This document shows, piece after piece, positions 1 through 10,048 of a stretch of 64,000 nt of DNA. How positions within the stretch are numbered: position 1 is the first letter of the stretch; the number at the start of each line of letters is the position of its first letter. The stretch comes from a bacterium. GTDB lineage: Bacteria > Cyanobacteriota > Vampirovibrionia > Gastranaerophilales > Gastranaerophilaceae. Location of the stretch: NCBI GenBank assembly GCA_017941035.1, contig JAGAXG010000015.1, forward strand, positions 1-64,000. The letters run 5' to 3'. The position numbers and the translations under genes are program-made. The notes beneath the pieces are model-generated. The model saw only the letters and a list, made by a program, of their open reading frames with translations, was not told the origin of the DNA and ran no database searches.

Positions 1-99
1 CACGAATCATCGGCTCTTTTTGTTTCGTATTTGAAAGAACAAACTCACCAAATAAAAAAAACGATATTCGGGTGGGTTATTTTGTTATACCCTAAATTA

Positions 100-137
100 C
101 CCTCTGAATTTGTTTTTAAATTTGGAGGGATTTTTTT
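100..137 (+). terminator. Rho-independent terminator
   Basis: The arms CCCTCTGAATTT (100-111) and AAATTTGGAGGG (118-129) pair over 12 positions with two G-U pairs and a 6-nt loop, followed by a run of seven T (131-137). It would end a rightward transcript entering from left of the window. No gene is recognisable in 1-168 apart from this hairpin. Confidence 0.65.
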
Positions 138-168
138 ATGTTCTTTTTTCGGGCGGTTATTCATCTGC

Positions 169-756
169 TCATACGAAGTAAAATTTATCAATACATAGCA
201 TATCAGAGAATGGCAGGAAACCAGTTAAAAAAATTTCTGCCAGTGCAAACTTACCTAAGAAGAACTCGTATATTTCACCGAATATATCAAGCTCTATATT
301 CTCCGGGATGTCCTTAAAGTTTCTCAAGAGGTTAGATAATACCAACGGATTTTCTGGAGTGTTTACGCTGTAATAAATATCTTTAGGAAGTGTGTCTTCA
401 AGCTCTTTAGTATATTTTTCAATAGCAATCATTGCATTTTTAACAGCTTCTGCAAGGTTTGAATCATCTGGCAAATTCAAGAGTTCATTATATCTGGATT
501 CTTTAGGAAGATAATATCCACATCTTTCAATAGCTATCTCATGGATAGGTCTTTCCATACGAGTTCCTTTGAGTCGGTTGAACTCGTTGTTTATCTCTGC
601 TTCATGTTGAGAATATTTAACATCAGCAAATCTAAGGAATATCAAACCTAACACAGGTTCAGCATATTCAGTAGCTTTCAAACCAGAATTAGCCCTTAGC
701 TGGTCTGCCGTTGCCCATAATTTATCTTTCAACTCTTTCAACTGCTTTATTAACAT
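169..756 (-). pseudogene. hsdM: Truncated type I restriction-modification methyltransferase subunit (HsdM N-terminal part)
   Basis: The protein opens with the N-terminal helical domain of type I methylase subunits: a start resembling LWATADQLRANSGL, then EYAEPVLGLIFLRFAD, and FGEIYEFFLGKFALAE near residues 158-174. In complete HsdM (about 500 residues) the stretch after FALAE continues into the SAM-binding domain and the NPPY catalytic motif. Here it runs instead into about 21 unrelated residues and stops at 195, so no methylase activity is expected. A good Shine-Dalgarno (AAGGAGTG) precedes the ATG. No hsdS or hsdR follows. I read it as a remnant cut by a rearrangement, probably during assembly of the mobile region. 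An assembly join cannot be excluded. Confidence 0.75.
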
Positions 757-901
757 ACTTCACTCCTTGACTTGGTTTAATATTATCACAAACATGGCTT
801 ATAAGTATCTTACAATAATACTCTGCCAGAATCGGACATACTAATCTTTTTTCTTATGACATTTACAATTGTAGAAGTAATATCTGTGGTAAAATAAAAG
901 T

Positions 902-1186
902 ATGATAAAGACTTTCAAATGTAAGGAAACTGAGAAGATATGGAATGAGGAGTTCTCAAAGAAACTTCCTCACGATATTCAGAAACGTGCTTTGCAGAAG
1001 CTCCGAATGTTGCACGTAGCATCCGTTCTTGATGACTTAAAAGTTCCACCGAGCAATCATTTGGAAGCATTATCTGGAGACAGACAAGGACAACATTCTA
1101 TTCGTATCAACGACCAGTACAGAATCTGCTTCCGTTGGTTAGATAACCATTCATTTGATGTTGAAATAGTAGATTATCATTCTTAA
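902..1186 (+). CDS. higB: HigB-type toxin of the RelE/ParE superfamily
   Basis: This 94-residue protein matches the RelE/HigB toxin fold in length and layout. The N-terminal helices (IWNEEFSKKLPHDIQKRALQKLRML) lead into the strand region LSGDRQGQHSIRINDQYRICFRW and end DVEIVDYHS, the usual HigB terminus. Known HigB proteins are ribosome-dependent mRNA endonucleases; the basic and aromatic residues of the RINDQYRICFRW strand agree with that. higA follows 96 bases downstream on the same strand, giving the toxin-first order typical of higBA. The activity is inferred from the family. In a mobile element such a pair usually aids maintenance or phage defence. Confidence 0.88.
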   Translation: MIKTFKCKETEKIWNEEFSKKLPHDIQKRALQKLRMLHVASVLDDLKVPPSNHLEALSGDRQGQHSIRINDQYRICFRWLDNHSFDVEIVDYHS

Positions 1187-1219
1187 TTTAATCTATCTTA
1201 ACAAAATCCTTTTGCGGGG

Positions 1220-1248
1220 TTGAAATTACGTGGTACGTACCGTATAAT
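1220..1248 (+). promoter_or_regulatory. higA promoter with embedded palindromic operator
   Basis: TTGAAA (1220-1225) and TATAAT (1243-1248) are separated by exactly 17 bases. The spacer holds the perfect palindrome GGTACGTACC (1232-1241). The site lies between higB and higA, so the antitoxin seems to have its own promoter, with a likely HigA-binding site between the -35 and -10 boxes. Confidence 0.6.
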
Positions 1249-1282
1249 ATAAGTAGATGATAAACAATATGGAGATACTGTA

Positions 1283-1582
1283 ATGACTGAATATATTGAA
1301 CTTACAACCGTTGGTGAAATGCTCAAAGAAGAATTCATTGAGCCATTTGGTCTTACTCAAAATGCTTTAGCCAATGCAATATTTGTACCTCCAAACAGAA
1401 TACACCAAATAATCAAAGGTCAAAGAAGAATCACTGCCGATACAGACCTCAGACTTACTACATACTTTGGTCTTTCACAAGGTTACTTCTTACGCTTTCA
1501 AGAAGACTACGAACTCAGAATCGCCAGAAGAGAAATTGCTGATGATATAAATAGAATCCAGCCAATAAAAGCATTAGGATAA
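1283..1582 (+). CDS. higA: HigA-type antitoxin, XRE-family HTH protein
   Basis: This 99-residue protein has the HigA signature: GEMLKEEFIEPFGLTQNALANAI leads into a helix-turn-helix (about residues 24-60, with VPPNRIHQIIKGQRRITADTDLRLTTYFG) and the usual tail FLRFQEDYELRIARRE. Family members bind and neutralise HigB and repress their own operon through a palindrome. Such a palindrome, GGTACGTACC, sits in the promoter directly upstream. The independent promoter would let antitoxin be made in excess of toxin. Confidence 0.9.
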   Translation: MTEYIELTTVGEMLKEEFIEPFGLTQNALANAIFVPPNRIHQIIKGQRRITADTDLRLTTYFGLSQGYFLRFQEDYELRIARREIADDINRIQPIKALG

Positions 1583-1584
1583 CA

Positions 1585-1821
1585 TCAAGTATCACTTTCA
1601 TTGGTCTTTTTCCAGTTTAATTGAACCTGTTCTATTGCATATTCACGCATTAGTTGCTCCACATTTTTCTTCTCTAAATAACGTTTAACAAGTTTGCTAC
1701 AAAAAGTTGAAGGTAGAATATTTATATATCTGCAATAGAACAAAAGTTGTTCTCTAAGTTCCTTTGAGAAATATACTGATACAGTTCTATACTTCTTATG
1801 CCGACTCTCTTTATTATCCAT
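1585..1821 (-). CDS. Ribbon-helix-helix (CopG/Arc-like) small protein
   Basis: The start is placed at the ATG at 1821 (MDNKESRHKK...), which follows a strong GGGAGGT ribosome binding site and overlaps the stop of the upstream small gene. An in-frame ATG at 1845 would lie well inside that gene. The 78-residue product has a short basic beta strand (YRTVSVYFS) followed by two helices (KELREQLLFYCR and STFCSKLVKRYLE), the layout of CopG-type DNA-binding proteins. It is translationally coupled to the 54-residue gene before it. A role in copy control or regulation of the element is an inference. The gene converges on higA with a 2-base gap. Confidence 0.6.
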   Translation of the reverse strand: MDNKESRHKKYRTVSVYFSKELREQLLFYCRYINILPSTFCSKLVKRYLEKKNVEQLMREYAIEQVQLNWKKTNESDT

Positions 1822-1978
1822 TATTCTTACCTCCCAGTCTTTCAAAATAATTGTGTAGTAAATTGTTAATAAGCCAGCTTATGCTAACCCCATGTTCCTT
1901 TCTATACTCTTTTAACTGCTTCTGCATCTGTGGAGTAACAGCAAAGGATGTAATGACTCTATTAGTTTCTGCTTTCAT
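1814..1978 (-). CDS. Small ribbon-helix-helix protein, 54 residues
   Basis: An open frame runs from the ATG at 1978 to a TAA at 1814-1816. The product begins MKAETNRVITSFAVTPQMQK and continues with helices QLKEYRKEHG and SISWLINNLLHNYFE, again a strand-helix-helix layout like Arc/CopG repressors. Its stop overlaps the start of the following RHH gene, which suggests a two-gene operon whose products may form heterodimers. The ribosome binding site is weak (TAGGT). The short length makes the call moderate, but the overlap and fold pattern support a real gene. Confidence 0.55.
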   Translation of the reverse strand: MKAETNRVITSFAVTPQMQKQLKEYRKEHGVSISWLINNLLHNYFERLGGKNNG

Positions 1979-2102
1979 ATTGTGTACCTATATTTGTTAT
2001 TAACTGAACTAAAATGTAATAACTATATGATGCGTTAATAATATTAGTGATAATTCATAGGTAGATAACAAAAGGTATATTTGACAAGATACAAATATTC
2101 AA

Positions 2103-2166
2103 GGAGAGGTGTCTGTGGCCGCCCTGACCGGGTTTTCCTTATCTGCATGGTATAACTTTACCTCTC
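2103..2166. other. GC-rich inverted-repeat region beside the rep gene; possible origin or processing site
   Basis: In otherwise AT-rich DNA, the arms GAGAGGT (2104-2110) and ACCTCTC (2160-2166) flank a loop holding the GC-rich core CGCCCTGACCGGG. The site lies just past the stop of the replication-initiator-like gene, in the 236-base gap 1979-2214. The position suits a replication or transfer origin, or a structured transcript end. Neither function can be shown from sequence alone. Confidence 0.3.
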
Positions 2167-2214
2167 AGACAAAGAAAATCTCTCAAATTTAATTCTGGAG
2201 CTGCATGCCGGGAA

Positions 2215-3177
2215 TCAGTGTGTGAATTTCCCTCTCAATTCTTCAAACTCAAGGTCGTTGTCCCTTGCGTATGCTTCTTTTGCCTTCTTAAAGTAATTAT
2301 AAGCTCTGCCCATATCATGAATGTAACATAGTAACTTATAGTTCCTTTTGGACTTAATAGCACTATCTACTGCCAGTTGTTTTAATGTCTTGCAAGATGT
2401 TTGCTTCTTCGGTTGAGCAAATACAGTCTTACTCAAAATATCATTGAAGGTTTTCTCAATAGTATCTTGAAAAGTGCCATTTTGTATGGCTTCTATCATA
2501 TCGTCTATTGTATGAAATGGTAGATAGTCCTCCCTTAATTCTATCTCACATCTTAATAGGTTCATTTTATATAATAGAAGTCCATATCTGTCTCCTCCAG
2601 TTGAATAGTCCATTGGTAGTTCTGGTGCATTAACAAGTTCTTTCAAAGGTAACACTCTGTTAGCTTTATCTCTATCAATAAGCTCTCCAGCCTTGTCATA
2701 GAACTTAATCTTTAGTTTCTGATTCCTCTTGGACTTCGGATTTCTTTTCTTTTTGGCAACATATACAGTTTTGTATGAATCTGTGGCATTTGTAGTAGCT
2801 ACATAGCCATTCAAATATTCATGGTTAAGCAAAACTTCAAGGTAATCTGCAACATCACCTTCTACTGTTATATCCATAGGAAGGTGCATCAAATACAGGT
2901 TTAAGTTCTGACCTGCGACTGACCTCACCTCTTGGAGAAATTTTAGAAACTGATGTAACGGAATCATCTGTAAGTTGTGATTAAAGCCGTCATAACCTTC
3001 TCTAAGTTGTTTTGTAGGGGTTACATCTCTCTTTAGTTTATGGAATCTATCATGATTTTTTGGTTTAACCACCACACCATAGTATCTACGGATAACCTCG
3101 TCTATTCTCTTTGTTGTCTCCGTAGTAACCAAGTCAATACCAAAACTTATTTTATCAACTTTCACTTCCCCTAACAT
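2215..3177 (-). CDS. Putative replication initiation protein (Rep_trans/phage RstA-like)
   Basis: The 320-residue protein shows two motifs seen in rolling-circle initiators of the Rep_trans/RstA type: LKIKFYDKAGE (about residues 155-165) and NLLRCEIELR (about 206-215). The spacing and family-like length support a replication protein for the integrated element, which would act by nicking its own origin after excision. It is the last gene of the leftward series int, 176-residue protein, 506-residue protein, rep, and starts one base after the preceding stop. The catalytic Tyr cannot be assigned by eye. A phage-type DNA-binding protein of another family remains possible. Confidence 0.5.
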   Translation of the reverse strand: MLGEVKVDKISFGIDLVTTETTKRIDEVIRRYYGVVVKPKNHDRFHKLKRDVTPTKQLREGYDGFNHNLQMIPLHQFLKFLQEVRSVAGQNLNLYLMHLPMDITVEGDVADYLEVLLNHEYLNGYVATTNATDSYKTVYVAKKKRNPKSKRNQKLKIKFYDKAGELIDRDKANRVLPLKELVNAPELPMDYSTGGDRYGLLLYKMNLLRCEIELREDYLPFHTIDDMIEAIQNGTFQDTIEKTFNDILSKTVFAQPKKQTSCKTLKQLAVDSAIKSKRNYKLLCYIHDMGRAYNYFKKAKEAYARDNDLEFEELRGKFTH

Positions 3178-3178
3178 A

Positions 3179-4699
3179 TCAATAATACAACTCCTTATAG
3201 AAATTATTCAAAGTATACACAGGAGGGAGCTTTAGTTTCTTCAATTTTCTGATGACTTTACAAATCTTTCCAGAGGTTTCTTTGTCTGGAGCAAGAGCTT
3301 CATCTATTACATTCTTATCTTCTTCGTAATATTCCAATATGACAGTAATGTAATCAAGAATGCTATAAGTTTGTCCCATTTTTTCCAGCTCCTGTTTTAT
3401 AAATGAAAATAACATTTCATCTTGAGAAGGAACTTCAACTTCATCAAATGCATGTTCCATTGTTTTTGCTTTGGTCAGACACTGAATCTTATCGGCATCA
3501 CTAATATCAGAAATAATCCTAAATTGGCCTGTCCTTACTTCTTCGGCAGATTCTATTCTTGCCCTTGCCTTTTGCTGTTCATGCTGTTGAGTATATGACA
3601 AAATGTCGTGCAATATACGATATGAAGCTAAGTAAACATCTTCATCATCTGCTAATCTTGAAAATATGGGTAGTATGTCATCATCTTCATCTGTTTGTAA
3701 ACTGAATATAGAATCTACCATATCTTTCCCAACAAGGGTAATATCATAAGTTAAGGTCATATCTTTGTGAAGAGTGTACAAACATTGAATGACTCTTTTT
3801 GTATAATTAGTATCAGACGGAGCTTCATCATGAACAGGAAAATTGATAGTGGAATTCAAGAACTCTTCTCTCGGTCTGAATGTGAACATAACATGGTTTT
3901 CTCCACAACTCTTTCCCAAGAATCCATACTCAGAATCCAACTGCTTAAGCTGGGTAAACCATGTATAACTGTCATCTGCCTTTATGGTAACTTTATAATC
4001 AACAATAGAAACTATTGGAACAATATAGGTAAACACTGATTTGAGTACCCAGACCACATATTTTGCTGTTGGGACTGTGTGTAGATATGAATGTTCTTTC
4101 CAATAATCATACTTATGCCTGTTCATTTGCTCATACAGGTTAAAGAGAACCAAGTAGAGCAGGTCTCTTGTGTATGTAACAGGGTCTTTTGCTGTAGACT
4201 TTGAAGGATACAACTTTACAACAAGGTTGTATTCACCACTATTATTATCCTTGCTCACGCATAACTCTAATATATCATTAAGTCTGCCACTTATAAGGTC
4301 TCTTCTAAACTCTTCTATATGAAAATGATAGAGACTGCTTAATACTATGGCTTCTGTGCCACTAAATGTATCTTCCCTATAATGGTAGTTACATATACTT
4401 ATTAACTCTTCTTTACTAAGTGTAGTTATTTCATCTACAAACTCTAAGTCAAACAATGAATGATAATTGTTACTTATCAACTGTTGTAGTTTTTCTATGT
4501 TTTCACTACTACAAATAGTCCCAACACTAATCATACATTGTATTTCACCCATATTAACACAGAAACTTTTGTCGTGAGTGTTCCTATTATATGAAAGTGA
4601 AGACAAATCTATAAAATTATTATTTGTACCAGCACTTTTGCTATCTTTTTCTAAAACATATATACCGTCAATATCTTGACTTGGCTCTTTGCTCTTCAT
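3179..4699 (-). CDS. Uncharacterised 506-residue element protein
   Basis: I do not recognise this protein. It is soluble, with no signal peptide or membrane helix, and is rich in acidic residues. Its C-terminal 100 residues are predicted to be helical with charged repeats (KQELEKMGQTYSILDYITVILEYYEED). No Walker, HEXXH, primase or nuclease motif is visible. It lies tightly upstream of the Rep-like gene (one-base gap) and about 110 bases after the 176-residue RHH protein, so it is probably co-transcribed from the phage-like leftward promoter. By position it could be a replication accessory or packaging protein; this is only context. Confidence 0.5.
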   Translation of the reverse strand: MKSKEPSQDIDGIYVLEKDSKSAGTNNNFIDLSSLSYNRNTHDKSFCVNMGEIQCMISVGTICSSENIEKLQQLISNNYHSLFDLEFVDEITTLSKEELISICNYHYREDTFSGTEAIVLSSLYHFHIEEFRRDLISGRLNDILELCVSKDNNSGEYNLVVKLYPSKSTAKDPVTYTRDLLYLVLFNLYEQMNRHKYDYWKEHSYLHTVPTAKYVVWVLKSVFTYIVPIVSIVDYKVTIKADDSYTWFTQLKQLDSEYGFLGKSCGENHVMFTFRPREEFLNSTINFPVHDEAPSDTNYTKRVIQCLYTLHKDMTLTYDITLVGKDMVDSIFSLQTDEDDDILPIFSRLADDEDVYLASYRILHDILSYTQQHEQQKARARIESAEEVRTGQFRIISDISDADKIQCLTKAKTMEHAFDEVEVPSQDEMLFSFIKQELEKMGQTYSILDYITVILEYYEEDKNVIDEALAPDKETSGKICKVIRKLKKLKLPPVYTLNNFYKELYY

Positions 4700-4809
4700 T
4701 TTTTCTCTCTTCTTTTCTGGTTTCTTCCTTTGGCTCTTCTGTTTTGAAAGGAAGAGGGAGTGCGAAGAGCCTTAATCACTCCCTTACTTTAAAATATAAC
4801 TATTCTTCG

Positions 4810-5340
4810 CTATACTTTCTTACTTTCTTCCTCAACCCAGTTTTCTATCCAGGCTTCGGCTTTGTTTTTACTCTCAGCCTTAACCCAGCTTTCCAACCAA
4901 GTTTTTGCTTTATTTGAGCTGTCCATATCATCACCTCCTTTCTGCTCATTTTGTCCATTAGCTTTTGCTAATGCTACTTCTACCATATAATCTTCCTGTG
5001 CTTGCACTTCTGCAATTAGATTAGCAAGCGAATGAGGTAACACTTTATTCACTAAATCAGATAATGATATATGTTGTCTTATTGAATATTCCATACCTAA
5101 TTCAAATGCTTGCGTTTTGGGGAACTGTATCACCAGAGGTAATGTATTCTCTGAGTATTTACAATCAACATCATCAAGTGATGAATCGTATGTAACATCT
5201 TCCCTATGGTTCACAATGGAATCAGCTACAAACTTATTTGCATCAATATCACCACTTCTATCGTATGTCTTAATTGTTTTCACCAGATATTCCGGGAGCT
5301 GTAATGTTAGTTCTATACTATTTTTCTTCATCTTCATCAT
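4810..5340 (-). CDS. RHH-like protein with duplicated Trp-rich C-terminal tail
   Basis: The N-terminus (IELTLQLPEYLVKTIKTY, then DANKFVADSIVNH) fits a ribbon-helix-helix DNA-binding domain at residues 5-48. After a middle region without known motifs, the last 33 residues are an imperfect tandem repeat: KAKTWLESWVKAES followed by KAEAWIENWVEEES. The repeats would form amphipathic helices with paired Trp. The gene overlaps the integrase end by 23 bases. In-frame ATGs at 5340, 5337 and 5331 are all possible starts; the last gives a more typical RHH N-terminus. It is probably an element regulator or segregation-type protein. Confidence 0.5.
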   Translation of the reverse strand: MMKMKKNSIELTLQLPEYLVKTIKTYDRSGDIDANKFVADSIVNHREDVTYDSSLDDVDCKYSENTLPLVIQFPKTQAFELGMEYSIRQHISLSDLVNKVLPHSLANLIAEVQAQEDYMVEVALAKANGQNEQKGGDDMDSSNKAKTWLESWVKAESKNKAEAWIENWVEEESKKV

Positions 5341-6460
5341 CTCCGAATATCTTATTATCCACTAACTCACCTGCTTCATCTGATAATTCTTTCAGAATCT
5401 GAGTGTAAGTGCGTTCTGTAACATGGGTATTACTATGCCCAACTTGACGAGAAATATATGATGTAGGAACACCACATAAATGCAGAATATCTACATATTG
5501 CCCTCTTAAGTCGTGAACACGGCAAAATTTCTCATCATACCCACATGCCTTAAGCAGTTTTGCAAACTTTCTTTCTATCCATTTAGCATACATTTGACCA
5601 CCTTTATCTGCTCTGAACATCAAATCATCATCTGCAATATTGTATCTTTCAATATGCCATTGAATAATCTCAAGAACTTTAGGTGATATATCAATAGTTC
5701 TTGTAGAAGCGTCTTCCTTTGTTCGGTTCTTTTCTTCCCCCCTTGTTATCTGCTTATCTATGAAAATCTTTTTAAGGACATTCCTTATATTACATGGTCT
5801 TAAAGCTGAATATTCTCCAAGTCTTGCTCCTGTTAAAGTCGCAAGAATAAATAAGCAGTAGTATTCTGGGAATTGTTGTTCACAAGTATTAATTACTTTT
5901 TTAAGTTCTTCCATACTAAACCTATTCCTTAACTTAGGTGGGATAGTTACAGATTTGACATCCTTGAATGGGTTTGTGCTAACCTGTTTTAGTTCAATAG
6001 CATAATTGAAAGCTGCTTTGGCAAACTTAATACAACCATTAAATATATGGTCGCTTGCTCCTTTTTTAAATAATTCTCTTCTCCATTTTTGAATAAGTGC
6101 AGGAGTGAGATTCTTAACCGGGACATATTTGAGCATCTGGAAGTGATTATTCAAATATCCTTCATAATTACAAATAGTACCCTTAGCATATTTACCTTCG
6201 TTCTTAGCGAAATCAAGGTAGTATATAGTAACATCTTCTAATGTAGCATCTTTATTGAGTTCTAATGTGCCAGCTTCAAAGTCGTTCCAGAATTTTCTTT
6301 CTGCAACTTCACCTTCACTTTTAGTAGAAAAGTATCCGACATGTTGATGTTTCTTTTTAGGTTTACCAAACCTGTCGTATTCCCCAGTCGGAATATAAAC
6401 TACTACTCGCCAATCAAATTTAGTTTTCTCTTTGTTAAGGTAATGCTTTGAAACTGACAC
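5318..6460 (-). CDS. int: Tyrosine recombinase (integrase)
   Basis: This 380-residue integrase has an N-terminal arm-binding region (1-65), a SAM-like core-binding domain (about 70-165) and a catalytic domain. Active-site residues are visible: Arg213 in TLTGARLGE, a likely Lys248, His316 and Arg319 in HDLRGQ, His342 in GHSNTH, and nucleophile Tyr352 in ERTY. Family members integrate and excise phages and ICEs, often at tRNA genes. Here the tRNA-Glu 3' end lies about 0.9 kb away, past the repressor. The gene follows xis by 9 bases and is transcribed away from the tRNA. The sequence looks intact and functional. Confidence 0.93.
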   Translation of the reverse strand: MSVSKHYLNKEKTKFDWRVVVYIPTGEYDRFGKPKKKHQHVGYFSTKSEGEVAERKFWNDFEAGTLELNKDATLEDVTIYYLDFAKNEGKYAKGTICNYEGYLNNHFQMLKYVPVKNLTPALIQKWRRELFKKGASDHIFNGCIKFAKAAFNYAIELKQVSTNPFKDVKSVTIPPKLRNRFSMEELKKVINTCEQQFPEYYCLFILATLTGARLGEYSALRPCNIRNVLKKIFIDKQITRGEEKNRTKEDASTRTIDISPKVLEIIQWHIERYNIADDDLMFRADKGGQMYAKWIERKFAKLLKACGYDEKFCRVHDLRGQYVDILHLCGVPTSYISRQVGHSNTHVTERTYTQILKELSDEAGELVDNKIFGDDEDEEK

Positions 6461-6469
6461 GATAAACTC

Positions 6470-6655
6470 CTATGCTGCAATAAGATGTCTTTCTTGAAAC
6501 GCTACAATGTCGCTTAACAGCCACATTCTTTTATTACCAAACTGGTAACAATTAAGTGTTGGGTCTGCCAATAATAACTTTCTGGTGTGGTGGTACTTGA
6601 GACCCAAGAAGTCAGCCACCTGTTGAATACATAAGTAAATTTCTTTGTCTTCCAT
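6470..6655 (-). CDS. xis: Excisionase/MerR-like HTH protein
   Basis: The start is set at the ATG at 6655, which has a GGAG ribosome binding site. An upstream in-frame ATG at 6739 would lie inside the promoter. The 61-residue product (LCIQQVADFLGLKYHHTRKLL, then FGNKRMWLLSDIVAFQE) matches the winged-helix excisionase family that binds and bends DNA at attachment sites and steers the integrase toward excision. It is first in the operon and 9 bases before int, the classic arrangement. It could also act as a transcription factor. Confidence 0.8.
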   Translation of the reverse strand: MEDKEIYLCIQQVADFLGLKYHHTRKLLLADPTLNCYQFGNKRMWLLSDIVAFQERHLIAA

Positions 6656-6682
6656 GAAAATCTCCTTTTTTATCACTACGGC

Positions 6683-6775
6683 AAGTGGACGTCCACTTCC
6701 AAATATATAATACCACATATTCTTTTTCTTGTCAAGCAAAAGTGTCCGTCCACTTTTTAAAGTAGATGTCTACTT
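6683..6775. promoter_or_regulatory. Three repressor operators in the divergent control region
   Basis: Three copies of a 16-bp palindrome lie between xis and the repressor gene: AAGTGGACGTCCACTT (6683-6698, perfect), AAGTGTCCGTCCACTT (6740-6755) and AAGTAGATGTCTACTT (6760-6775). The consensus is AAGTrGACGTCyACTT. The first sits just downstream of the leftward -10 box, over the transcript start. The second lies just upstream of the leftward -35, and the third just upstream of the rightward -35. The layout resembles a lambda-type switch, with the adjacent HTH repressor as the expected ligand. Confidence 0.75.
6707..6735 (-). promoter_or_regulatory. Leftward promoter for xis-int operon
   Basis: On the minus strand, TTGACA (6735-6730) and TATTAT (6712-6707) are 17 bases apart, close to the sigma-70 consensus. 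The expected start of transcription falls on or beside operator 1 (6683-6698), so repressor bound there should block it. Confidence 0.75.
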
Positions 6776-6778
6776 TGT

Positions 6779-6807
6779 TTGACAAGTTTATGGTTTTCGT
6801 GTATCAT
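6779..6807 (+). promoter_or_regulatory. Rightward promoter for the repressor gene
   Basis: TTGACA (6779-6784) and TATCAT (6802-6807) are 17 bases apart, followed by the AAAGGAGGT ribosome binding site of the repressor gene. Operator 3 ends four bases upstream of the -35 box, a position suited to activation or autoregulation by the repressor. Confidence 0.7.
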
Positions 6808-6826
6808 GCATACAAAAGGAGGTAAT

Positions 6827-7264
6827 ATGGATAACAATTCAACCATGTATGCTTCGGAAATATATGAGCAGTTAAAACTTGTACTCGGACAATATTTTAA
6901 TGAAGTCAGAGAAAGTAGAAACATTAGTTTAAGAGATATAGAATCTTCAACTAAAATGTCTAAATCGTTGTTATCAGCATTTGAAAAGGGTGAAAAGTTG
7001 CCACGAATGGAAAACTTAATTAACCTTATGATAACATTGGGGATTCCTTTTAATAATATATTCTCAGAAGAGGTATCTGAACGAACTGGGGCAAGCTACG
7101 ACACTGATACAATACCTCAAAGAGATGACCAAGCTATAACCAAGACTTTGATAAAAATGAATTTAGATAAAGATGATGTTGCTGATGTATTGGCATATAT
7201 AGACTTTATTAAGTTCAGAAGGCATAACATGCAGAAGAAGTCTGGCAGATATATTCCCAGATAA
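6827..7264 (+). CDS. Phage-type XRE/cI-like repressor
   Basis: The start is the ATG at 6827, which follows AAAGGAGGTAAT. The in-frame ATG at 6779 coincides with the -35 box and is rejected. The 145-residue protein has an XRE helix-turn-helix (about residues 16-75; EVRESRNISLRDIESSTKMSKSLLSAFEKGEKLP) and a C-terminal acidic and helical part (DDVADVLAYIDFIKF). There is no LexA-type Ser-Lys peptidase domain, so induction may rely on another signal or an antirepressor. It is divergent from xis-int and adjacent to three matching operators, so it is the likely master switch of the element. Confidence 0.8.
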   Translation: MDNNSTMYASEIYEQLKLVLGQYFNEVRESRNISLRDIESSTKMSKSLLSAFEKGEKLPRMENLINLMITLGIPFNNIFSEEVSERTGASYDTDTIPQRDDQAITKTLIKMNLDKDDVADVLAYIDFIKFRRHNMQKKSGRYIPR

Positions 7265-7314
7265 TGCTGTTATACAAGGGTTATAACCTACTAAATTTCT
7301 CATGCTAACTTTTC

Positions 7315-7335
7315 GTTACCAAACTCGTTACCAAA
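7315..7335. repeat. Direct repeat GTTACCAAA x2, possible integrase/excisionase arm sites
   Basis: Two copies of GTTACCAAA (7315-7323 and 7327-7335), with a preceding C in both, are spaced 12 bases apart between the repressor and the tRNA-Glu. Short direct repeats beside an attachment site often bind the N-terminal domain of an integrase or the excisionase. Function is inferred from position only. Confidence 0.4.
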
Positions 7336-7364
7336 TAGGGCATTTTAGGATAAATCAAGGCATT

Positions 7365-7389
7365 AAAAAAGAGGGCTTAAATGCCCTCT
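7365..7389 (-). terminator. Terminator downstream of tRNA-Glu
   Basis: GAGGGC (7371-7376) and GCCCTC (7383-7388) form a hairpin with a 6-nt loop. Read on the minus strand it is followed by TTTTTT (7370-7365). It lies 10 bases past the 3' end of the leftward tRNA gene and should end that transcript. If the element entered at the tRNA 3' end, this terminator may have come with it. Confidence 0.75.
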
Positions 7390-7398
7390 ATTATTATA

Positions 7399-7474
7399 TG
7401 GTACCCCCAAGCGAATTCGAATCGCTGTCTACACCGTGAAAGGGTGTTGTCCTAGGCCTCTAGACGATGGGGGC
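7399..7474 (-). tRNA. tRNA-Glu (anticodon TTC)
   Basis: The minus strand folds as a complete cloverleaf of 76 bases with encoded CCA. The acceptor strands are GCCCCCA and TGGGGGT with a terminal G-U pair. The anticodon stem ACACC/GGTGT holds loop CTTTCAC (anticodon TTC), and the T stem AGCGA/TCGCT encloses TTCGAAT. The acceptor sequence and the A53-U61 pair closing the T loop are features I associate with cyanobacterial and chloroplast tRNA-Glu, which also serves in tetrapyrrole synthesis. The integrase-bearing element lies on its 3' side, making it the likely attachment site. Confidence 0.95.
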
Positions 7475-7529
7475 TTAGATTACGCAATCCCTGCGCGTAT
7501 GCTCATATTAAACCGAACAAAATTAAATG

Positions 7530-8504
7530 TCAACAACAACTTTTTAAATTTTTTATTTGAGCTATTATTTCTGATATTTCAGGAGAAATATCATCTTTTG
7601 AATGTATATTGTGTCTTACCATTTGTGCAAATTCAGATTTTTTAAATTCATGCATTCCCCTTTTTTTAAATACTTCTTCCAAAAATTCCACTCGTGAAGT
7701 ATTTATAATATTTGAATTTTCTACAGGTATAGATATATTTTTTAATTCATATTCTAAAGTCTTTTTTATAAGAGTTTCTGGTAATAAGTCTTCAAATTCT
7801 CCGCATTCTAGTAAATGAATCTTATCTTTTAATCTTAGTTTCGCAGATATTTCAAGTGAATTTTCAAATCCGTCTTTATCCAAGAGTACAAATATCGGAA
7901 GTTTTAATGTCTCGACAAGTTTATAGTACAGTTTTACTACTTGGTTTTTACCTCCGGCTGAAATTACATAAATTCCCTCTTTATCAAAATCAAATCCGCA
8001 AATTTTCCCAAATTCAGGAAGTAAAGTTTCTTCTGTTATTCCTTCTGCAATAACTACAACTTCAATTGGGAACTGAAGAGAAAATTCATCCCTTTTTAAT
8101 TTAATATTGCTGTTTATCCCAAGTTCTTTCAACCAACGTAAATTTTTAGGTGATGTTTTATCAATGTATTTTAAACATTCTGAATAATTTATATTATTGT
8201 CAAGTAAATTCGCTGTTTCTTTCGAAATTTCAAATACTGATTTTTCATAATCCAGAAGTTTTTTATTAATATTTAAATTGTTAGTGACTCCTAATGTGTA
8301 GTTGAAAACATCTTGAGCTAAGTTTTTAAGTTTTTCATAATCCATTTTATCAAGTTCACTTTTTTTGAATTTTGGTTCGATTAAATTTTGAATAATAATA
8401 TCTTTAAAAACTCGCAAATATTTTGTTTCAGTGTTTTTAAATCTTGTTAATCTGTCAATTGAAATTATTATTTGCTCTCTTGTAAGTTTTTTAATTCTTT
8501 TCAA
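7530..8504 (-). CDS. Stand-alone TOPRIM-domain protein, OLD-nuclease-like
   Basis: The 324-residue protein has a TOPRIM domain in its C-terminal half. IAEGITEETLLPEFGK (Glu154) matches the OLD-family version of the first motif, and FVLLDKDG (Asp209, Asp211) is the metal-binding DxD motif. OLD nucleases normally carry an N-terminal ABC ATPase; here the first 140 residues are helical and lack Walker motifs. A nuclease activity is plausible from the TOPRIM residues. A defence or DNA-repair role is inferred from the OLD family and from the position beside an integration hotspot. The start has no strong Shine-Dalgarno. Confidence 0.6.
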   Translation of the reverse strand: MKRIKKLTREQIIISIDRLTRFKNTETKYLRVFKDIIIQNLIEPKFKKSELDKMDYEKLKNLAQDVFNYTLGVTNNLNINKKLLDYEKSVFEISKETANLLDNNINYSECLKYIDKTSPKNLRWLKELGINSNIKLKRDEFSLQFPIEVVVIAEGITEETLLPEFGKICGFDFDKEGIYVISAGGKNQVVKLYYKLVETLKLPIFVLLDKDGFENSLEISAKLRLKDKIHLLECGEFEDLLPETLIKKTLEYELKNISIPVENSNIINTSRVEFLEEVFKKRGMHEFKKSEFAQMVRHNIHSKDDISPEISEIIAQIKNLKSCC

Positions 8505-8594
8505 AAAATGCCTCTTTTAATATTTATTTACAAATAATATACACGTATGGCAATTTTTTCTTATATTTGTTTTTTATATTAATGTGGTGTTATT

Positions 8595-9989
8595 ATGGTA
8601 GAAAGAATTAGCCCTCGTATATTTCAAACAAATTATAGCACAATAAATAGTGTTAGTAATAATATTACAAAGACTTCTGTTACTGATAAAACAGTAAGTA
8701 GACCTTCTTTTTGTGCAAATTCGGACTCAATTGTAAATAATCCTGTTAATCAAACTACTATAAGAACACAATTAACTACAAAAGACGAAAATGAAAAATA
8801 TAAAACGGTATTGTCAAAACTTGACAGAAATAGCAAAAAAGTTGTTGAAAGCTTATTAAAGAACGGGATTTTATTAAATAATAATTCGAATGATAAAAGT
8901 TCAGTATTGGATAATTTATATAAAATATCTACTGAACCGCGAGCATATGGTCTGGATGCAACGGTAATATTAAAAGATACTATTGCCGCAATAGCTTATC
9001 CTTTTATAATTACTCAACAATTTGGAGATATTCCTGCAAATTATTTAAATGAAGTGATTAATATCAATAATGAAAGTAAATCAAATTTAATTGATGTCCA
9101 GCAAAGTGCTAAAGATGTTAATGTAGAACACTCTGGTACTTGCGTTGCTGCTAGTACTGAATTCAAATTAGCAAAGCAAATGCCTGCAGAATTTGCAAGA
9201 TTTGCGCAAGGATTGAGTTCTGAAAAAATGTCTGTGGATAAAGAAATTGTTCTTGATAATTTGGCAGATAATACACTAAATGGCGTGTGGTTATTAAATG
9301 CATTTAATATGCCGTACAAAATGGATAATTATGATAAAGCTATACTTACTTTTGCCCCTGATAAAAATGCAATAATAAGAGCTAAAATTCAAACAAAAAA
9401 TAAAGATTCTTATGAAAGAACTCCGTTGGATGTATTAATGCAGTCCACATTTATGCAGATAGGCTCACAGCAATCTTACAATACTTTAACAGATAAAAGA
9501 GGCGGTAAATTTAATCAAAATGATAAAGGTTTAATTGAATTTGAAAAAACCTTTACAGAATCTGTAGTTTTTGATAAAAATATTCTTTCTGTAACATATC
9601 AAACAGTTGACGAAAATGCACGCCTTGTAGGCTATGAAACAGATTTAGATACAATGAAAAATCAATTGTTGAGTGCTTTGGATATGGGTGAAAATGTTAT
9701 TATTGGATATACTCAAACAAATGAAAATAATATTATTGTGAACGGGCATGAAATAACAATAATCGGATATAAAAAGGATAATAACGGTAAACTGACTTTT
9801 ATTTGTAATGATACAGATGATGGCGTTTCAAGACCTTTAGAATATCCGGAAGATTATTTACTCCCAAAAATTCATCATGCTGCTCTCCCAAAAGAAATTG
9901 TCGAAAAAGATTTGGATATTGTTCCAAATTGGGTTGAAGGAGTAGAAATATATAGACAAATGAAAAATCAATCAAGAAACATTGCATAA
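8595..9989 (+). CDS. Uncharacterised protein with possible papain-like Cys/His/Asn fold
   Basis: I do not recognise the 464-residue protein as a named family. After a Ser/Asn/Thr-rich N-terminus (1-65, with RPSFCAN near 36-42) there is a helical region, then GTCVAAS with Cys183 at the start of a helix. Near the C-terminus come NGHEITIIGY (His385) and FICNDTDDG (Asn405/Asp406). The order Cys, distant His in a GHxxxxxGY strand, then Asn or Asp is that of papain-fold (clan CA) peptidases or transglutaminase-like enzymes. There is no signal peptide. The next gene encodes a 5'-nucleotidase 59 bases downstream, so the two may be co-transcribed. A peptidase call is a hypothesis. Confidence 0.45.
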   Translation: MVERISPRIFQTNYSTINSVSNNITKTSVTDKTVSRPSFCANSDSIVNNPVNQTTIRTQLTTKDENEKYKTVLSKLDRNSKKVVESLLKNGILLNNNSNDKSSVLDNLYKISTEPRAYGLDATVILKDTIAAIAYPFIITQQFGDIPANYLNEVININNESKSNLIDVQQSAKDVNVEHSGTCVAASTEFKLAKQMPAEFARFAQGLSSEKMSVDKEIVLDNLADNTLNGVWLLNAFNMPYKMDNYDKAILTFAPDKNAIIRAKIQTKNKDSYERTPLDVLMQSTFMQIGSQQSYNTLTDKRGGKFNQNDKGLIEFEKTFTESVVFDKNILSVTYQTVDENARLVGYETDLDTMKNQLLSALDMGENVIIGYTQTNENNIIVNGHEITIIGYKKDNNGKLTFICNDTDDGVSRPLEYPEDYLLPKIHHAALPKEIVEKDLDIVPNWVEGVEIYRQMKNQSRNIA

Positions 9990-10048
9990 TTTATGCAAAA
10001 AAAATTTTTAGAAGTTTTAAACAATGTGTAAAGGGTTAAAGGTTAAAA

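Follow-up and report, generated by a model that had tools for sequence, protein, structure and literature searches.

Genes and features at the locus

The window, which is the whole stretch of DNA analysed here, covers positions 1 to 64,000 of contig C6, one of 48 contigs of a 1.8-Mb genome assembly that is 98.44% complete. Near its left end, a repressor gene of the XRE type lies divergent from a small gene that precedes an integrase gene. Between the two lie two predicted promoters, P_L (leftward) and P_R (rightward), and three putative operators, O1, O2 and O3 (Table 1).

Table 1. Features at the left end of the window; positions are those of the whole stretch.
Feature	Position	Strand	Description
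HsdM N-terminal fragment	169-756	-	Type I R-M cargo, near contig end
HigBA-like pair	902-1582	+	Island cargo; HigA TIGR02607 3e-25 (strong); Txe/YoeB 0.0034 (below cut-off)
Backbone ORF, 320 aa	2215-3177	-	PHROG "replication protein", weak, E 0.0021
Backbone ORF, 506 aa	3179-4699	-	No clear family
ORF, 176 aa	4810-5340	-	Overlaps the end of int; no clear family
Tyrosine integrase (int), 380 aa	5318-6460	-	GTG start; PF00589, 3.7e-13
Excisionase-like small protein (xis), 61 aa	6470-6655	-	HTH_17, E 0.0037, below cut-off
O1, putative operator	6683-6698		AAGTGGACGTCCACTT; 16-bp palindrome, perfect
P_L, predicted xis-int promoter	6707-6735	-	TTGACA-17-TATTAT, TG before -10; -35 at 6735-6730, -10 at 6712-6707; predicted start about 6700
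O2, putative operator	6740-6755		AAGTGTCCGTCCACTT; two mismatches to consensus
O3, putative operator	6760-6775		AAGTAGATGTCTACTT; one mismatch
P_R, predicted repressor promoter	6779-6807	+	TTGACA-17-TATCAT; -35 at 6779-6784, -10 at 6802-6807
XRE-type repressor, 145 aa	6827-7264	+	HTH-type families (Pfam, NCBIfam)
Two GTTACCAA direct repeats	7315-7334		Beside att copy; candidate integrase arm sites
att copy, 49-bp core	7395-7443		Overlaps 3' half of tRNA-Glu
tRNA-Glu (ttc)	7399-7474	-	Integration target

In both Pfam and NCBIfam, the repressor matches HTH-type families only, with no S24 or other cleavage domain, just as the original prediction had said of a LexA-type domain. HTH_19 matches residues 21-78; in the predicted model (mean pLDDT 78, pTM 0.50), a low-confidence linker (88-97) and two C-terminal helices (101-110 and 115-138) follow. 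The folds that the model resembles are generic ones of the XRE/SinR type, with no match at E <= 0.001. The PDB matches of the repressor profile (A5) include SinR and the ICEBs1 regulator; these are, of course, not independent, since that profile already contains repressors paired with ImmA. A tblastn search returned 2 phage and 8 plasmid records, all below 60% identity, and a scan with the single sequence confirmed no close relative in genome_contigs or viral_contigs.

The 61-aa gene is read as xis from its position before int, its HTH_17 match being sub-threshold.

Promoters and operator sites

Two divergent, near-consensus promoters had been predicted, and both are found, each matching 11 of 12 consensus positions. 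The region from 5200 to 7500 holds 11 other promoter-like matches, each with a score of 9. In number, the 13 promoter-like matches do not exceed what shuffled sequence gives (mean 9.5, sd 3.1), so that only the scores of P_L and P_R stand out. Their predicted starts are about 114 bp apart.

The three sites were originally described as 16-bp palindromes of identical type. They are indeed related, and O1 is perfect; O3 carries one mismatch, and O2 joins a perfect right half to a weak left half, AAGTGTCC, that matches 6 of 8 positions. None of the three overlaps a promoter hexamer; the sites flank these instead. O1 had been thought to cover the leftward start site. It begins, rather, about 2 bp downstream of the predicted start and, in the transcript predicted for xis-int, occupies roughly positions +2 to +17. 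Upstream of the leftward -35 box, a gap of 4 bp separates it from O2 (centre about -47.5); O3 (centre about -46.5) lies 3 bp upstream of the rightward box. Thus, each promoter has an upstream site, and P_L alone has a downstream site as well.

Could such repeats arise by chance in an AT-rich intergenic region? A single perfect 16-bp palindrome is, by estimate, not rare in 64 kb, and 12-mer repeats of the intergenic region are not significant, the pair score being reached by 12 of 200 shuffles and the triplet score by 55 of 200. Against this, a scan of the 64-kb window with AAGTRGACGTCYACTT finds O1 with 0 mismatches, O3 with 1 and O2 with 2, and no further match at up to 3 mismatches, where 0.42 would be expected; none of 100 shuffles of the window reached three such matches. 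As a 14-mer triplet, O1-O3 are the best of the intergenic region, equalled by 2 of 200 dinucleotide shuffles. Across all 48 contigs of the genome, no place besides O1-O3 lies within one mismatch. The wider pattern AAGTRGAYGTCYACTT, at up to 2 mismatches, gives O1-O3 and two lone places with 2 mismatches each (on C36 and C45); these are taken as background, since the backward control of the pattern gives 13 and 15 matches in the same genome. The geometry of the sites, moreover, recurs in part of the relatives (below). Chance is therefore hardly credible as an explanation.

A second alternative accepts the sites but assigns them elsewhere, either to binding by Xis or Int or, for O1, to a hairpin that stabilises the mRNA. 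O1 would indeed fold as a 5' hairpin of the xis message, with -10.1 kcal/mol for 62 nt, but this energy is ordinary (z -0.68), and neither of the predicted transcripts includes O2 or O3. As for Xis or Int, the candidate arm repeats of the integrase differ in sequence from O1-O3, adjoin both att copies, and lie more than 500 bp away. This alternative is very unlikely.

The analysis of the DNA confirms the three sites and the divergent promoters as real features, functional-looking and ordinary in kind.

The island and its cargo

The 49-bp att core of the window is identical to a second copy at positions 4063-4111 of contig C48, beside which two more GTTACCAA repeats are found (4227 and 4238). 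No intact tRNA was found on C48 beside this copy; past it lie further genes, including a C-terminal fragment of hsdR. An integrase together with an att core duplicated at the 3' half of a tRNA identifies a tRNA-integrated island of the tyrosine-recombinase type. The island is read as C48 from 4063 onwards, an assembly gap within the type I R-M genes, and C6 from 1 to 7443, a reading in which we infer that the two contigs join. Both contigs break near fragments of the island hsd genes, C6 at the hsdM N-terminal fragment (window 1-756) and C48 at the hsdR C-terminal fragment (7841-10020, locus L059). The sequence at these contig ends seems to leave the hsd genes, possibly through an insertion or an assembly effect.

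The backbone ORFs are less easily placed. The 506-aa ORF aligns with its counterparts in genomes G041, G044 and in L064 at 20, 18 and 11% identity. The 320-aa ORF has counterparts in 3 of 97 other genomes (G041, G044 and G057); its fold, predicted without an alignment, is poor (mean pLDDT 45), and it has no plasmid match. Searches of viral_contigs with the integrase, with the tandem O2-O3 pattern and with the alignment of the 320-aa ORF gave no close relative.

Islands in G041 (L049), G044 (L055) and G057 (L054) have two backbone ORFs in common. The restriction cargo differs among islands with common backbone ORFs, being type I in the window, type III in G041 and type IIG in G044; by eye, the G057 cargo is similar.

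Two other loci touch the same target. In G028 (contig C100, 3562-4059; L052), a tRNA-Glu is accompanied by the two arm-type repeats and by the final 22 codons of a repressor gene 91% identical to that of the window, beyond which the DNA has no match to the window; this locus is likely, from what it retains, to be the remnant of a related island. In G037 (L048, 8779-11826), an integrase 60% identical to that of the window, with one internal stop, lies near the same tRNA-Glu but belongs to a different element, which has an ORF that resembles, by eye, a phage-type primase/helicase.

Related switches

A search of genome_contigs with a four-sequence repressor profile found ten loci. Seven switches like that of the window lie in L060-L065, namely RUG13727, RUG11132, L062, L063 (which is RUG10694), L064a, L064b and RGIG4827; G041 is the eighth. 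L062 and L064 are labelled Candidatus Gastranaerophilales. The counts given here set aside L010-L012 and L014-L025 (weaker XRE matches, not taken for homologous switches), the G044 switch (found by eye), the G057 repressor, and L067-L069. In all eight switches compared, a small HTH-like gene and an integrase gene run divergently from the repressor gene; the integrase is cut by the contig end in RGIG4827 and is a fragment with masked bases in L064b. On L064 (5556-7779), two repressor modules stand in tandem; they have one operator type in common, and the masked-base integrase fragment lies between them.

The small proteins are diverse. Among the eight scanned, three (RGIG4827, L064a and G044) score above the HTH_17 cut-off and one (RUG11132) below it; for G041 and G037, no HTH family was matched. 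For the counterparts in RUG13727 and L062, the best match is the HTH of Phage_CI_repr, just below the cut-off in the first and above it in the second, which also passes MerR_1. Given these two matches, the 61-aa protein may have a cro-like role.

A search for the same operator next to xis-int in other genomes had been proposed. Allowing up to one mismatch, a setting that would miss sites like O2 with its 2 mismatches, one isolated copy was found in 97 other genomes (in G095, a relative of the same class), and none had two. What recurs, in part of the relatives, appears to be the operator layout, with changed operator sequences. Triplets of the CGWACRYGTWCG type are found in RGIG4827, L064a and L064b, the three whose repressors have the reading-helix stretch VSLAVINDLEKARSMPRVETLIRLGLAL in common; G041 has ATCGAATA repeats, and L062 has GCGTGCGTTC pairs. 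Taken each alone, the loci RUG11132, RUG13727, L062 and L063 gave no significant result in a three-copy motif test.

The layout was examined using intervals set from the window, which, counted from the predicted leftward start, place the centre of O1 at +9.5 +/-5 and that of O2 at -47.5 +/-3. A consensus served to call the promoters, an automatic ranking ordered the repeated 12-mer pairs, and the top three pairs per switch were counted. The sites in RUG13727, RUG11132, L062 and G041 had first been picked by eye, but the test used the automatic pair finder only; the promoter starts came from an earlier exploratory comparison of the loci. Four of the eight switches fit (O1 near +10, O2 near -47), compared with 1.5-3.3% of shuffles (p 1.7e-5), and three of six fit if only one of the three CGWACRYGTWCG switches is kept (p 2.5e-4); both p values are optimistic, because the exploratory look at the same loci came first. 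Widening O1 to +/-10 gives 6/8 (null up to 6.3%), and counting the top five pairs gives 5/8. The figure to quote is, of course, that of the strict setting (O1 +/-5, top three pairs). RUG13727 and L063 fit at none of the three settings, and RGIG4827 and G041 only at the looser ones.

One element of the proposed layout did not survive. O2 and O3 are, as predicted, 20 bp apart from centre to centre, a distance that had been held suited to cooperative binding. The corresponding distances in RGIG4827, L064a and L064b are 35, 34 and 34 bp. Because the distance varies in this way, a fixed cooperative spacing is argued against, and the fixed 20-bp spacing is rejected.

How the switch may work

The locus is very probably, from its gene order and its sites, a switch that maintains an integrative island at tRNA-Glu, in which the XRE repressor, acting at O1-O3, controls xis-int and its own promoter. 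What can be seen in the sequence are the sites, the promoter matches, the gene order, the two att copies, and a geometry that recurs in part of the relatives. Binding, repression and autoregulation by the repressor we infer from these.

Here, the 145-aa repressor would bind O1-O3. Bound at O1 and O2, it would sit on both sides of P_L and keep xis and int silent, and probably also the backbone genes that run in their direction. With xis-int silent, the island would stay integrated. Should the active repressor fall, or should the island enter a cell free of repressor, P_L would fire. That a downstream site is present at P_L only suggests repression of P_L and tolerance or activation of P_R.

Activation would be the task of O3. 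Repressor bound there could touch RNA polymerase at P_R without covering the hexamers, and the position of O3 relative to these hexamers means that the repressor may maintain or even raise its own production. In phage lambda, OR2 lies at about -42 from PRM; the centre of O3, at -46.5, lies a few bp beyond that. Such positive autoregulation is, of course, suggested by position.

A simpler arrangement is a serious contender, if somewhat short of an even prospect. Here, the operators are real, but the repressor merely represses both promoters (simple negative autoregulation, in which O3 does not serve for activation), and the island is induced spontaneously. RUG11132 and L062 each have one site between the -35 boxes, at a similar distance from both promoters, as plain steric control allows. 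The 3-bp gap that keeps the O3-type site of the window clear of the -35 hexamer speaks against it, as do the gaps of 1-2 bp beside the O3-type 12-mers of RGIG4827, L064a and L064b, where longer true sites could nevertheless overlap the hexamer.

Induction

If the locus is a maintenance switch, something must release it. Profile searches of this genome with PF06114 (M78, ImmA-type) and PF00717 (S24, LexA-type) gave no match, while the controls matched in 8/14 and 11/14, respectively; the absence refers to profile searches of a 98.44%-complete assembly in which the island has a gap. With no ImmA-type and no LexA/S24-type protein detected, both textbook routes of release seem to be missing from this genome. 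Four more distant relatives (L066, a Tetragenococcus contig, and L070-L072, from IMG/VR) have a similar C-terminal tail and an adjoining M78 gene, all above the Pfam cut-off.

An S24 match is present in 48 of 98 genomes, comprising 10 of the 46 in the genus of the window and 38 of the 52 others. Put the other way, 36/46 genus members have no match of the LexA/UmuD type, against 14/52 outside the genus. A loss of LexA in the genus is possible. On Vampirovibrionia and LexA, the open-access PMC literature found concerned phosphorothioation.

The lack of a cleavage domain in the repressor, together with the lack of a detected ImmA- or S24-type protein, makes a non-proteolytic trigger (an antirepressor, a helper phage, dilution or noise) the likeliest means of induction.

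The helper phage raises a further alternative, that the island is a phage satellite of the PICI kind whose repressor is released by a protein of a helper phage, as the Stl repressor of SaPI is. A tRNA-borne island with an integrase, a repressor, a possible replication protein (the match is weak) and R-M cargo would suit such an element, and so would a genome in which no S24 or M78 protein is detected. The ORFs of the island that were scanned (10 on C6 and 7 on C48), however, contain no capsid, terminase or packaging family, and neither the 506-aa nor the 320-aa ORF matches any of 50,697 phage records. A satellite is unlikely.

Comparison with known systems

The original prediction called the switch lambda-like. 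This holds insofar as a repressor-type switch with two divergent promoters lies beside xis-int, and the OR region of lambda likewise combines three operators, two promoters and one repressor (CI). It does not hold for the repressor, which lacks a cleavage domain, or for the operators, which leave the hexamers free, and it may not hold for the gene opposite, which is excisionase-like by a weak match. Where lambda has cro stands a 61-aa protein that gives HTH_17 only, below threshold, with two counterparts nearest to the HTH of Phage_CI_repr.

SaPI and other PICI elements are islands bounded by att sites, with the Stl repressor at their head. The island of the window has a repressor in this place as well; it differs in that the ORFs scanned include no packaging family.

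In phage P2, with its C and Cox proteins, the opposing regulator is likewise an excisionase, although P2 and phage 186 differ from the island of the window in the position of int and in the type of repressor. In phage 186, Apl is described as both opposing regulator and excisionase (PMC7498355). The likeness to both phages would lie in the opposing gene of the window, which is excisionase-like by a weak match. Three sites are also described for TP901-1, where CI acts at three operator sites (PMC7250872), and for phage 13, where the CI sites are three palindromes (PMC8516035). There, the opposing gene is mor; here, it is excisionase-like, again by the weak match.

The closest working likeness, on our best reading of these comparisons, would be the ImmR-Pxis switch of ICEBs1, minus ImmA. 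In ICEBs1, six regions with ImmR sites are described, three near each of two promoters about 130 bp apart; ImmR is reported to repress P_xis and to activate its own promoter, repressing it at high levels (PMC4207663, PMC9956884). In both systems, an XRE repressor is divergent from xis (assigned here by a weak match and its place before int), several sites lie between the promoters (six there, three here), and the distances are similar, given that the 114 bp here separates predicted starts. The island of the window differs in that no ImmA-type gene adjoins the repressor or is detected in its genome, in that int lies downstream of xis, and in that no conjugation family is found among the island ORFs scanned.

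What the switch may mean for the lineage

A broader reading, which must be called doubtful, makes the switch one case of an island immunity found throughout Gastranaerophilales. In this, operators would diversify together with the reading helix, giving immunity groups, while their positions are kept, relative to the xis promoter at about 0 to +14 and at about -44 to -48, and relative to the repressor promoter at about -42 to -50. Upstream sites would lie at each -35 box, the one at the repressor promoter activating, with a downstream block at the xis promoter only. Induction would have moved to a non-cleavage trigger, as suggested by the 36 of 46 genus genomes that have no S24 match. Nothing found in the open-access PMC literature, judged by titles and the start of abstracts, treats such islands.

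In itself, the switch looks like the ordinary on/off control of a mobile element, of a known kind. Its interest lies in the recurring geometry with a changing operator sequence, and in the route of induction. With a repressor that has no cleavage domain, in a genome with no detectable protein of the LexA or ImmA type, the mechanism of release becomes a sharp question. The locus offers a concrete control region for a mobile island of a Gastranaerophilales-type, probably gut, bacterium, one of several islands with common backbone genes that appear to carry different restriction systems (type I, III and IIG).
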